A stretch of DNA of 64,000 nt from Pseudomonadota bacterium (GTDB lineage: Bacteria; Pseudomonadota; Alphaproteobacteria; Acetobacterales; Acetobacteraceae). The translations under genes and the position numbers were made by a program. Where the stretch lies: positions 62,001 through 126,000 of the forward strand of contig JABBOH010000001.1 in NCBI GenBank assembly GCA_019351895.1, in the 5' to 3' direction. The notes beneath the pieces are model-generated. The model was not told the origin of the DNA, ran no database searches, and saw only the letters and a list, made by a program, of their open reading frames with translations. This document shows, in pieces, positions 22,507 to 62,072 of the stretch (position 1 is its first letter; the number at the start of each line of letters is the position of its first letter).

Positions 22507-22725
22507 ATGTCAAAAGAAGACATGATCGAATTCAGTGGCATGGTCGCTGAGCTTCTGCCCAATGCCATGTTTCGCGTGAAGCTCGACAATGATCATGTGA
22601 TCCTTGCCCATACCAGCGGCAAGATGCGCAAGAACCGCATCCGCGTGCTGGCCGGCGACCGCGTGAACGTCGAGATGACGCCTTACGACCTCACGAAGGG
22701 TCGCATCACCTTCCGGTTCAAGTAG
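22507..22725 (+). CDS. infA: translation initiation factor IF-1
   Basis: 72 residues, the S1-like OB-fold protein that occupies the 30S A site during initiation. The sequence from [19 protein letters not shown] through [17 protein letters not shown] to [12 protein letters not shown] is canonical, and the length is exactly that of the family. It is followed five bases later by maf. The 155-base upstream stretch is locally AT-richer (around 22460-22505) and probably contains its promoter. Confidence 0.98.
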
Positions 22726-22730
22726 CCGCT

Positions 22731-23282
22731 TTGCTCGCCTGCGGGTTGGTGCTGGCTTCGGCCAGTCCACGCCGCCGCGAACTTCTCGCTCAGATCGGCA
22801 TTGTCCCTGAGCGCATCGTCGCCCCGGACGTCGACGAGACGCCGTTGCGGCACGAACCCCCCCGTGACTACGTTCGCAGGATCGCCCGCACCAAGGCGGC
22901 AGCGGTCAGCGGCGCCGTCGTGCTCGCCGCCGATACGGCGGTCGCGGCCGGACGTCGAATTCTGCCCAAGGCCGAGACCGAGGCCGAGGCGCGGGACTGC
23001 CTCGCCATCCTCTCCGGCCGGCGCCATCGGGTGTTCACGGCGGTGGTCGTGCGCTTCGCCTCCGGCGAGACGCGCGAGCGGCTGGTCGACAGCATCGTGA
23101 CCTTCGCGCGGCTGACCCCGGCGGACATCGACCAATACATCGCGAGCGGGGAGTGGCGCGGGAAGGCGGGCGGCTACGCCATCCAGGGGGAGGCCGCACG
23201 CTTCATCCGCTTCCTCTCGGGAAGCTACTCAGGCGTGGTCGGACTGCCGCTGTTCGAGACTGCGCAGTTGTTACGGAATTAG
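22731..23282 (+). CDS. maf: Maf family nucleotide pyrophosphatase
   Basis: 183 residues. Maf proteins hydrolyse dTTP/UTP or modified nucleotides to the monophosphate. The N-terminal substrate loop LVLASASPRRRELLAQIGI and the acidic block DVDET are present, as are ARTKAAAV, VLAADTAV and GKAGGYAIQG. TTG at 22731 is taken as start, five bases after infA; a GTG a few codons on is the alternative. In many alphaproteobacteria infA-maf is followed by an RNase G/E gene and yacG; here it ends at a hairpin facing ahcY. Confidence 0.92.
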   Translation: MLACGLVLASASPRRRELLAQIGIVPERIVAPDVDETPLRHEPPRDYVRRIARTKAAAVSGAVVLAADTAVAAGRRILPKAETEAEARDCLAILSGRRHRVFTAVVVRFASGETRERLVDSIVTFARLTPADIDQYIASGEWRGKAGGYAIQGEAARFIRFLSGSYSGVVGLPLFETAQLLRN

Positions 23283-35310: not shown

Positions 35311-36342
35311 TCAGCCACCTCGCACGAGATCGACCAGCGCCGCCACATGGGCGGGCGAGGTCGGCGGCATCACGCCATGACCGAGGTTGAACACGAAGGG
35401 ACGATGTCTCATCGCGGCCAGGATAGCACGGGTTTCCCGTTCCATCACCTCACCACCCTGCATCAGCGCGAATGGATCGAGATTGCCCTGCAGCGCCAGC
35501 CCGTCGGGCACCAGCGTGTCAATGACGGCAGGGTCGGAGGCGGTGTCCATCCCCATCGCATCGACGCCCGCATCGGCCCCGTAAGCCGCGACCATCGTCC
35601 CGGCTAGGCGCGGGAAGCCGATGACCGGAACGCCCGGATGCAGCTGCTTGATGGCCGCCGCGATCCGGGCCGTGGGCCCGATCACATGCCGCCGGAACGC
35701 CGACGGCGGCAGCAGGCCGGCCCAGCTGTCGAACAGCATGACGGCTTCCGCTCCCGCCGCGATCTGGGCCAAGAGGTAGGTGATGCTCGTGGTCGTCAGC
35801 ACCTCGATCAGCCGGTCGAAGTCTTCCGGCTGTCCCGCCGCCATGCGGCGGGTGGCGGCGAACTCCTTCGAGCCGCCGCCCTCGATCATGTAGCAGGCGA
35901 CGGTGAACGGGGCGCCTACGAAGCCTATCAGGGCGGTCGTCGGATGCTTCCGCGCAAGCTCCGCCCGGATCAGCCCGATCGTCTCCAGCACCGGCTCCAC
36001 CCTGGTCAGGAACCCCGCGGAATCGAGCGCCCGGACTTCATCCACAGCCTTCAGCGGCGGCAGGCTGGGGCCGTGACCTTCGGTGAACTTCAGGTCGCGT
36101 CCCAGTGCCCAGGGAAGGATCAGGATATCGCTGAAGAGGATCGCGCCATCCATTCCGAAGCGCCGGATAGGCTGCAGCGTGGCATCGGCGGCCCGCGACG
36201 GATCCAGGCAAAACGACACAAAATCGGGCGTTTCAGCTCTTAGATTGCGATATTCCGGCAGATATCGGCCTGCCTGACGCATCAGCCATATGGGCGGCGG
36301 CCAGACCGGTTCCCCCGAAAGCGCCTGAAGCAGTCTTTTCAC
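35311..36342 (-). CDS. hemE: uroporphyrinogen decarboxylase
   Basis: 343 residues. It decarboxylates the four acetate side chains of uroporphyrinogen III. The signature PIWLMRQAGRYLPEYR is at about residues 18-33 and GFVGAPFTVACYMIEGG in the middle; the active-site aspartate is in ILFSDILILPWALG, and FNLGHGVMPPTSP closes the protein. GTG at 36342 with GGGGA five bases upstream is preferred to a TTG at 36354. It begins the haem operon and faces away from the PPDK regulator across a 305-base interval, the arrangement known around the Caulobacter and Rickettsia origins. Confidence 0.97.
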   Translation of the reverse strand: MKRLLQALSGEPVWPPPIWLMRQAGRYLPEYRNLRAETPDFVSFCLDPSRAADATLQPIRRFGMDGAILFSDILILPWALGRDLKFTEGHGPSLPPLKAVDEVRALDSAGFLTRVEPVLETIGLIRAELARKHPTTALIGFVGAPFTVACYMIEGGGSKEFAATRRMAAGQPEDFDRLIEVLTTTSITYLLAQIAAGAEAVMLFDSWAGLLPPSAFRRHVIGPTARIAAAIKQLHPGVPVIGFPRLAGTMVAAYGADAGVDAMGMDTASDPAVIDTLVPDGLALQGNLDPFALMQGGEVMERETRAILAAMRHRPFVFNLGHGVMPPTSPAHVAALVDLVRGG

Positions 36343-36647
36343 GTCTATCCCCAACCAGCTGGTGCTTCCCTTACATGACTAAAGAAGATCTAGGAATTGT
36401 GAGATGGAGGATGGGCCGGTGGATGCTGGGGTACCCCGTCCGCCTTGCGTTCGTCCCCAGAGTTGTCCACAGGCATGCTGGCTCTATCCTCCTGTTTTCC
36501 ATCAAGACTCTGTGAACCTTCTGCTGCGTCGGCGTGGCGCGGCCCACTCCTCCACACGACACGGCGAATACCGTCTTATACGCGCTGAGCCGGGCCCGGA
36601 TGCGATCGCCTCTCCCTTACCCCCGTTATCCCCATTATGGTTCCGAC
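36343..36647. other. candidate chromosomal replication origin (hemE / PPDK-regulator interval)
   Basis: 305 non-coding bases between divergent hemE and the PPDK regulator. DnaA-box-like sites on the + strand: TTGTCCACA (36463-36471, one change from TTATCCACA), TTATCCCCA (36626-36634, one change) and TCCTCCACA (36548-36556, two changes). Positions 36371-36400 are 21/30 A+T, far above the surroundings, and could be an unwinding element. One GACTC (36506-36510) is a GANTC methylation site. In Caulobacter and Rickettsia the origin lies between hemE and the RP001-type gene, which is this regulator family. It must also hold the two promoters. The region is short and has no perfect DnaA box, so this is a candidate only. 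Confidence 0.45.
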
Positions 36648-37532
36648 ATGTCCACGCACCGGCTCAACCTCCATCTTGTCTCAGACGCGACCGGCGAGAC
36701 GCTCAACTCGATCGTCCGCGCGACGACGGTCCAGTTCGAGCATCTCAGCATCATCCCGCATCGCTGGAGCCTGATCCGCACGCGCTTCCAGCTGCACCGC
36801 GTGCTCGACGGGCTGCAGGCGGAGCCCGGCCCGGTCCTGTCGAGCCTTGTCGACAAGGCGCTGCGGAGCGAACTCGACATGGCCTGCGCCAAGCTCGGCG
36901 TGCCGATCGTCCATGTGCTCGATCAGGTGATGGAGATGCTGCAGGAGAATGCGGGGGAGCAGGCGGCGGCGCGGCCGGGGCGGCAATATACCTTGGATGC
37001 CGACTACTTCCGGCGCATCGACGCGATCCACTACGTGCTGGCGCATGATGACGGGCAGGCCCAGGCCGGCATCGCGGAGGCGGACGTGGTGCTGGTCGGC
37101 GTCTCTCGCTCCTCCAAGACGCCGACCTCGTTCTACCTCGCCAATCGCGGCATCAAGGCCGGCAACATCCCGCTGGTGCCGGGCATCGCGCTGCCGCCGG
37201 CGCTGGATAACCCGGCCTGTCCCGTCGTGGGGCTGACGCTCGACCCGCAGGCGCTGATCGACATCCGCCGCCACCGGCTGCGGATGCTGGGCACGAACAA
37301 TGTCGGTCACCGGGACAGCGGCGAATATACCGACGAGGAGGCGGTCACGGCCGAACTGCTCTGGGCCAAGCGCCTCTGCACCAGCCGTGGCTGGCCGGTC
37401 ATCGATGTCAGCCGTCGCTCGATCGAGGAAACGGCCGCGACCATCATCCAGCTGATCGACGCGTGGCGCGAGCGGCAGCGCAAGGCGGCCGATGCGCGCA
37501 AGGCCGCGAGTTCCCCCCCATCCGCGCCTTGA
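36648..37532 (+). CDS. pyruvate, phosphate dikinase/PEP synthase regulatory protein (DUF299)
   Basis: 294 residues. Proteins of this family are bifunctional Ser/Thr kinase-phosphotransferases that use ADP to inactivate pyruvate phosphate dikinase or PEP synthase and phosphate to reactivate it. The N-terminal [17 protein letters not shown] and the P-loop [18 protein letters not shown] (about residues 151-168) are diagnostic, with [14 protein letters not shown] and [10 protein letters not shown] further on. The ATG at 36648 starts the protein exactly at the conserved region. The tail ([17 protein letters not shown]) is not conserved. It is the RP001-type gene flanking the origin in some alphaproteobacteria. 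Confidence 0.94.
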
Positions 37533-61196: not shown

Positions 61197-62072
61197 TTAG
61201 GTGTATTTCTTGAGGAACCTGCGCACGTCGCCGGCCAGATCCGGCCGCGCCAGGCTGAACGCGATCTGCGCTTCCAGGAAGCCGACCTTATCGCCGCAGT
61301 CGAACCGTTCGCCCTCGAATCGCAGCCCGTGGAAGGGCGAGTGGCCGATCAGCTTCGCCATGGCGTCGGTCAGCTGCACCTCGTTGCCGGCGCCGCGCTC
61401 CATGCGGGAGAGATGCTCGATGACCTCGGGCATCAGCACGTAGCGCCCGATGATCGAGAGGTTGGAGGGCGCCACGTCGGGCTTCGGCTTCTCGACAAGG
61501 CCCGTAACCTCGACGAGGCGGCCGTCGTCCTCGCCGATCTTGAGGATGCCGTAGCGGTTGGTCTGGTCGCGCGGTACCTCGACCACGGCAACGACGCTGC
61601 CTTCGGTCTCCTTATAGGCCTGGGCGAGTTGCGCCATGCAGGGCGTCTTGGAGAGCACGAGGTCGTCCGGCAGCAGGATCGCGAAGGGCTCGTCGCCGAT
61701 GAAGGTGCGGGCGCACCAGATGGCGTGGCCGAGGCCGAGCGGCTCCTGCTGGCGCACCGTGGTGATGGAGCCGGGCTGCAGCCTGTCCTGCTGCAACTGG
61801 GCGAGTGCCTCGGTCTTGCCGCGCTCCTTGAGCGTCGCCTCAAGCTCGTAGGAGACATCGAAATGGTCGATGAGCGCGGTCTTGCCGCGTCCCGACACCA
61901 TGCAGAACTGCTCGATCCCGGCGGCTCTCGCCTCATCCACGGCATATTGGATGAGCGGGCGGTCGACGACCGTCATCATCTCCTTCGGCATGGACTTCGT
62001 TGCCGGAAGAAAGCGGGTGCCCAGACCGGCCACGGGAAGTACCGCCTTGCGCAACGGTTTGGCAGACATCAT
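61197..62072 (-). CDS. galU: UTP--glucose-1-phosphate uridylyltransferase
   Basis: 291 residues. The nucleotidyl-transfer signature is LPVAGLGTRFLPATKSMPKEMM (residues 13-34), with DRPLIQYAVDEARAAGIEQF, ILLPDDLVLSKTPCM and GLVEKPKPDVAPSNLSIIGRYVLMPEV following. It makes UDP-glucose for polysaccharides and lipid glycosylation. Length and order are canonical. The start MMSAKPLRKAVLPVAG could be either of two adjacent ATGs. It is upstream of the phosphomutase that supplies its substrate. Confidence 0.97.
   Translation of the reverse strand: MMSAKPLRKAVLPVAGLGTRFLPATKSMPKEMMTVVDRPLIQYAVDEARAAGIEQFCMVSGRGKTALIDHFDVSYELEATLKERGKTEALAQLQQDRLQPGSITTVRQQEPLGLGHAIWCARTFIGDEPFAILLPDDLVLSKTPCMAQLAQAYKETEGSVVAVVEVPRDQTNRYGILKIGEDDGRLVEVTGLVEKPKPDVAPSNLSIIGRYVLMPEVIEHLSRMERGAGNEVQLTDAMAKLIGHSPFHGLRFEGERFDCGDKVGFLEAQIAFSLARPDLAGDVRRFLKKYT

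Follow-up and report, generated by a model that had tools for sequence, protein, structure and literature searches.

A predicted chromosomal replication origin between hemE and a PPDK-regulator gene in a probable Acidisoma species

Where does replication begin on the chromosome from which this DNA was taken? The window, by which we mean the whole 64-kb stretch analysed, corresponds to positions 62001-126000 of the 280,324-bp contig C99, part of a draft genome of 4.70 Mb and 141 contigs. Within it, two genes diverge around a gap of 305 bp: hemE, which runs leftward, and a rightward gene for a PPDK/PEP-synthase regulator of the Kinase-PPPase type (DUF299/COG1806/RP001). According to PMC1914354, the origins of Caulobacter and R. 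prowazekii lie between the same two genes. The first-pass annotation placed a chromosomal origin at this junction, and its proposal is now supported by skew minima in three genomes, a cluster of DnaA boxes and a conserved sequence element. It is highly probable, in our judgement, that the interval 36343-36647 (C99:98,343-98,647) is the oriC of an Acidisoma species.

The genus is suggested by the regulator protein, whose closest named relatives come from Acidisoma of the Acetobacteraceae (85, 87 and 89% identical); other full-length named matches reach 67-73% and are mostly labelled Acetobacteraceae or Rhodospirillales, and two partial ones stand at 79%. The opposite orientations of the two boundary genes, described in the first-pass annotation, are borne out by matches to TIGR01464 and PF03618. 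Left of hemE lies hemH and, further out, rho. The break in synteny that the annotation held against an origin is likewise real, with maf (22731-23282) sitting beside infA (22507-22725) about 14 kb from the interval. The features to which the argument refers are the following, in window coordinates.

35311-36342, minus strand: hemE, uroporphyrinogen decarboxylase, the left boundary; GTG start at 36342 (TIGR01464, 368 bits; PF01208)
36343-36647, no strand: the entire hemE/PPDK-regulator gap, predicted oriC (skew minima, box cluster, profile match)
36345-36353, plus strand: CTATCCCCA, of weak-box type with a TCCCCA core; alignment rows L027 and L028 carry TTATCCCCA here
36371-36400, no strand: A+T-rich stretch (21/30 A+T), candidate DNA unwinding element
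36418-36426, minus strand: position of reverse DnaA box 1, degenerate in the window (GCATCCACC), from the alignment of 28 gaps
36428-36436, no strand: GGGGTACCC, adjoining box 1; GGGTACCC in 15 of the 28 gaps
36454-36459, plus strand: TCCCCA weak-box core
36463-36471, plus strand: TTGTCCACA, DnaA box 2, a strongly conserved position
36506-36510, no strand: GACTC, a GANTC site; GANTC is enriched across the 28 orthologous gaps
36548-36556, plus strand: TCCTCCACA, weak DnaA box
36626-36634, plus strand: TTATCCCCA, conserved weak box right before the regulator start codon
36648-37532, plus strand: PPDK/PEP-synthase regulator, the right boundary; ATG at 36648 (PF03618, 282 bits; NF003742, 297 bits)

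Strand asymmetry around the junction

Cumulative GC skew, which the first-pass annotation had proposed to follow over the complete chromosome, was computed over the whole of the window's own contig; its minimum lies at C99:89,790, 8.6 kb from the interval, and two other genomes of the genus agree. The skew of C99 turns slightly negative again at 110-140 kb, giving a second, shallower low (-877 vs -1,016). In a contiguous 400 kb of genome G004 the minimum is at 281,918 and the interval at about 290,880-291,186. The third genome, G003, was sampled as 60 stretches of 20 kb along its contig C1 (4,542,221 bp), which was taken to be circular: the interpolated minimum falls at 4,165,000, beside an interval at about 4,170,955-4,171,262, and the maximum at 1,825,000, which is 2.34 of 4.54 Mb from the minimum, or about half a chromosome. 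The best step fit with two breaks has the origin at 4.16-4.17 Mb, positions from 4.12 to 4.19 Mb coming within 5% of it; the bootstrap range of the break (5-95%) is wide, 4.10-4.36 Mb, and counts against the reading. The skew minima of the three genomes lie 6-9 kb from the junction.

The switch of strands is also visible when the three genomes are aligned on the interval. Averaged over them, skew in three successive bins of 20 kb is -0.0214, -0.0111 and -0.0127 to its left, and 0.0076, 0.0074 and 0.0246 to its right. The bin directly to the left (-20 to 0 kb, mean -0.0127) is negative in every one of the three; in the bin directly to the right (0 to 20 kb, mean +0.0076) C99 and G004 are positive and G003 stands at -0.0027. 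Further single-bin deviations are +0.0008 in G003 (-40 to -20 kb) and -0.0019 in C99 (20 to 40 kb).

Other measures of asymmetry are less sharply focused. Heptamers learned from G003 have their minimum on C99 at 111,484, 13 kb off. The architecture-imparting leading-strand octamers given in PMC3751514 separate the halves of G003 (294/157 vs 163/279) without localising the origin in C99 or G003; their cumulative minimum falls away from the interval in both, at 184,246 on C99 and at coordinate 0 among the G003 samples. The skew of G015, available as one 1.45-Mb contig sampled in 12 stretches, is irregular. In G029, a single-contig genome of the family in which no regulator was found, the conserved element described below adjoins hemE, about 65 kb from the sampled skew minimum; samples near that minimum are 60-100 kb apart.

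DnaA boxes and conserved blocks of the gap

What does the interval itself contain? Direct reading of the sequence confirmed that TTGTCCACA, TTATCCCCA and TCCTCCACA, which the first-pass annotation had reported for one strand, are all on the plus strand. Its GANTC site and its 30-base stretch of 70% A+T (21/30, starting at 36371) are likewise present, and it was correct that the interval holds no perfect DnaA box. Stretches of 30 bases with 21 A+T occur in just three places in the window, this one included, which also encloses AGATCT at 36386-36391. GANTC occurs 50 times in the window, and the single site of the interval is unremarkable alone.

Sequences within one mismatch of TTATCCACA number four in the window and 13 on the whole of C99, and two of them are inside the interval. 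In a weighted scan of C99 for box clusters in 300-base windows the interval came first with a score of 6, followed by a place at 212 kb with a score of 5; the remaining ten of the 12 top clusters listed scored 3. A score of 6 was reached by none of 60 order-1 Markov contigs of the length of C99, whose maxima were 3 (24 contigs), 4 (32) and 5 (4). The TCCCCA core of weak boxes occurs three times on the plus strand of the interval and not at all on the minus strand. The genome as a whole is poor in DnaA boxes, since perfect TTATCCACA occurs three times in the entire draft and the same pattern read backwards 12 times.

The second-ranking cluster (C99:212,134-212,288, with a perfect TTATCCACA at 212,155) was rejected as an origin: it lies in positive skew and begins within the 3' end of an acyltransferase gene. 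It precedes an HPr-kinase-like gene and rapZ, and is possibly a DnaA-titration or regulatory site.

The gap can be compared across a wider set of relatives. The regulator was sought in 60 genomes, the own genome among them, and is present in 41. Among the 53 sequences examined (the window and 52 loci), hemE diverges upstream of the regulator in 37 and was not found in 16, in at least some of which the contig ends there. Leaving out the identical duplicates L054, L055 and L074 gives 34 gaps, 28 of them 280-335 bp long; the alignment of 28 rows also leaves out the six gaps longer than 335 bp. Of the 34, 28 hold a box that is perfect or one mismatch away from it.

Along the 28 aligned gaps, the conserved blocks follow one another from hemE to the regulator as an A+T-rich stretch, GGGCC-TGTGGATAA (box 1, reverse), GGGGTACCC, TTGTCCACAG (box 2, forward), TCCCCA-type sites, TTATCCCCGC and, directly ahead of the regulator, TTATCCCCGCTAT. 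Mean A+T content peaks at 0.68-0.72 some 20-50 bases left of box 1, as expected of an unwinding element. Box 1 is perfect in seven gaps and has one mismatch in another seven; the window has three mismatches at this position and the four other Acidisoma rows one to four. The TTATCCCCGC block is lost in the window, which reads TTATACGCGC. Within Acidisoma the interval is 63-69% identical, vs 73-85% for the adjoining gene ends; conservation therefore rests with the short blocks, as would be expected of binding sites.

The weak sites are directional. TCCCC[AG] is found on the plus strand in all 28 gaps, with 81 occurrences there vs 10 on the opposite strand, and its density is 9.38 per kb in the gaps vs 0.37 per kb per strand in the flanks; the wider core TCC[AC]CA shows a weaker strand bias (57 on the plus strand, 26 opposite). 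GGGTACCC, the form taken in 15/28 gaps by the block next to box 1, occurs at a single place in the 173 kb of flanks, a palindromic site that counts as two when both strands are scored. On C99 it also occurs at 150,722 and 186,446, and GGGGTACC recurs at 61,829 on the opposite strand. GANTC is present in 23/28 gaps, at 6.60 per kb vs 1.20 per kb in the mostly coding flanks, an enrichment which suggests that methylation may matter in the control of the site. Ten of the 28 gaps, none of them from Acidisoma, have a GANTC within the A+T-rich stretch, a placement by which methylation could be coupled to melting.

Some expected signals are missing. Strict DnaA-trios, defined as three or more.A. within 16 bases of box 1, occur in 3/28 gaps, the window having none, and are rarer than in shuffled sequences (mean 11.7, with 300/300 shuffles reaching the observed count). 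In a relaxed version of the test the longest.A. run at bases -65 to -15 of box 1 averages 4.11 vs 3.12 in shuffles, none of 500 of which reached the observed value; this result is only suggestive, because the test was chosen after the strict version had failed. TAG left of box 1 averages 1.39 vs 0.75 in shuffles (0/200 reach). CtrA sites of the form TTAAN7TTAA are absent from the interval and present in two of the 28 gaps; as the window's gap and 26/28 in all lack them, control probably differs from that of Caulobacter. The G-boxes of Caulobacter, TGATCCACA, do not occur in the interval, which has TTGTCCACA instead.

Promoter, partition locus or dnaA: where else could the origin be?

The most durable alternative holds that through these boxes DnaA controls the promoter region of hemE, of the regulator or of both, the true origin being elsewhere. 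The gap is by position a divergent promoter region, and wherever the element is clearly found it lies directly 5' of hemE. A nucleotide profile derived from 23 gaps outside Acidisoma matches solely the interval on C99 (E 1e-15) and the junction alone on the sampled stretches of G003 (E 1.1e-19); in 400 kb of G004 it matches the junction (2.6e-19) and one further place weakly (E 1.8). All six gaps longer than 335 bp match the profile, L053 weakly (1.9e-4), and the 16 loci without hemE yielded no convincing match (L076, E 1.7). A shorter model of 98 positions, running from the A+T-rich stretch to box 2 and made without Acidisoma rows, has the hemE junction as its top match in 8/8 genomes when 150 of several hundred first-look candidates are scored in each; the own genome gives 5.5e-10, with the next match at 0.207 (150 of 612 candidates scored), and the weakest genome, G017, gives 0.00113.

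Two weak matches to the 98-position model away from the origin, G002:C1:610578-610619 and G004:C1:332827-332868, cover the same model positions and have a perfect DnaA box each. They are perhaps a conserved DnaA-regulated site.

The element proves to be independent of the regulator gene. The search for hemE covered nine genomes of the family (the regulator not found, or not known to be beside hemE) and four of other families; of these 13, 12 have the gene, and in G035 it was not found. The profile matches directly 5' of hemE, with E of 2e-11 or better, in 6/8 family genomes, three in which no regulator was found (G012, G013, G029) and three in which it lies elsewhere in the genome (G005, G026, G034). 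Matches are weak or partial (3.7e-7 to 0.05) in G017, G033 and the four genomes of other families, where hemE and the regulator are adjacent. Since the element is kept 5' of hemE without an adjacent regulator, it belongs to the side of hemE and is not simply the promoter of the regulator. The number of boxes, their strand bias and the conserved A+T-rich peak go beyond the needs of a promoter, and in three genomes of the genus GC skew has its minimum close to this gap. The two roles are, besides, compatible, the Caulobacter origin being placed at this very junction by PMC1914354. We therefore give the promoter reading little credence.

An origin beside parB and mnmG is less probable again. In many bacteria oriC is close to parABS, and on C99 parB (195,066), mnmG (197,215-199,056) and a parS-like site (197,185) lie together about 97-100 kb from the interval, with the minimum of the leading-strand octamers at 184,246. 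A skew minimum beside parAB/gidA, which the first-pass annotation named as evidence against the junction, was not found: parB (195 kb) and mnmG (197-199 kb) are in clearly positive skew on C99. The skew is positive on both sides of them, likewise at the matching distance in G004, and by this measure the parB-mnmG locus of the own genome is a poor origin candidate. Of the 12 highest-ranking box clusters listed on C99, the closest to this locus scores 3 and lies at 190 kb, and the 98-position model has no match there among the 150 of 612 candidates scored.

The parS-like sites, taken across the genus, favour the junction. Besides the site at 197,185, about 99 kb away, the own genome has a second parS-like site at C99:247,842 (149 kb away), and four other genomes of the genus have one each (at most one mismatch), 60-94 kb away on the regulator side, so that a parS-like site stands on the junction's contig at 60-99 kb in 5/5 genomes of the genus. 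In Caulobacter, in contrast, parS is a few kilobases from the origin.

The least likely location is dnaA, near which oriC is predicted for A. pasteurianus 386B in PMC3751514 and, at the skew maximum, for A. cerevisiae KSO5 in PMC13209655: the gene is on another contig (C124) of the own draft; in G003 it lies 0.86 Mb from both the junction and the skew minimum; and in G029 its position is 0.60 Mb, which is 1.27 Mb from hemE and inside a long negative arm (skew -0.068). By skew it is a poor candidate in both of the latter genomes, and we can see almost no case for it. The skew of G029, the one single-contig family genome sampled, has its minimum near hemE and far from dnaA and argues against a dnaA-linked origin as a rule of the family.

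Initiation at the hemE junction and its relation to known origins

How might initiation proceed at the predicted oriC? In Caulobacter two stronger G-boxes are accompanied by weak TCCCCA W-boxes that are filled cooperatively (PMC4468827, PMC4285127). By analogy, DnaA would bind first to the stronger TCCACA boxes, namely box 2 at 36463 and perhaps the degenerate reverse box 1 at 36418, and would then fill the array of weak boxes on one strand. The assembly would melt the A+T-rich stretch at 36371-36400 by hemE, helicase would be loaded there, and two forks would depart in opposite directions.

A bolder and rather doubtful reading is that the Acetobacteraceae have a hemE-bound origin design of their own, in which one reverse box is combined with directional TCCCC-type weak boxes on the other strand, GGGGTACCC beside box 1 would serve a putative regulator, GANTC would replace the CtrA control of Caulobacter, and the reverse box would have decayed in the species of the window. 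With that box decayed, weak sites would have to carry nearly all of initiation. Were this reading true, the published dnaA-linked origins of Acetobacter would be wrong.

The predicted oriC otherwise confirms a known rule of alphaproteobacterial origins, the hemE-junction type of site being already known from Caulobacter and Rickettsia. It provides a base-level address of the origin for the genus and, by conservation, for many acetic acid bacteria and their kin, and the 98-position model locates the origin in draft genomes. The dnaA-linked predictions for two Acetobacter genomes now stand against the hemE-proximal skew minimum of G029. Among the open-access papers listed for Acetobacteraceae, Acidisoma or Gluconobacter origins or for alphaproteobacterial hemE origins, we found no description of this origin; databases such as DoriC may list it.

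Among known systems, the basal unwinding system of PMC8287927 shares with the gap a reverse box, a short G+C-rich spacer and an A+T-rich stretch; it differs in its trios, of which strict examples occur in just 3/28 gaps here. Wolbachia, Ehrlichia and Anaplasma (hemE/COG1253) resemble several genomes of the family in that the predicted origin stays with hemE when the gene on the other side changes, hemE of Wolbachia being predicted in PMC1914354 to have kept the origin after rearrangement; their boundary gene is COG1253, whereas the COG1806 gene is still in place in the window. The origin of Rickettsia prowazekii has the same boundary genes, hemE and RP001, but PMC1914354 gives it, like that of C. 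crescentus, a length above 400 bp, and the host here is G+C-rich; the likeness noted is that of the boundary genes. The closest parallel is Cori of Caulobacter crescentus, which has the hemE/COG1806 boundary, the TCCCCA core of W-boxes, few stronger boxes and an A+T-rich stretch in common with the interval (PMC1914354, PMC4285127, PMC4468827); it is set apart by its CtrA sites and G-boxes and by a length of more than 400 bp against a gap of 305 bp here, where maf lies 14 kb away on the other side.
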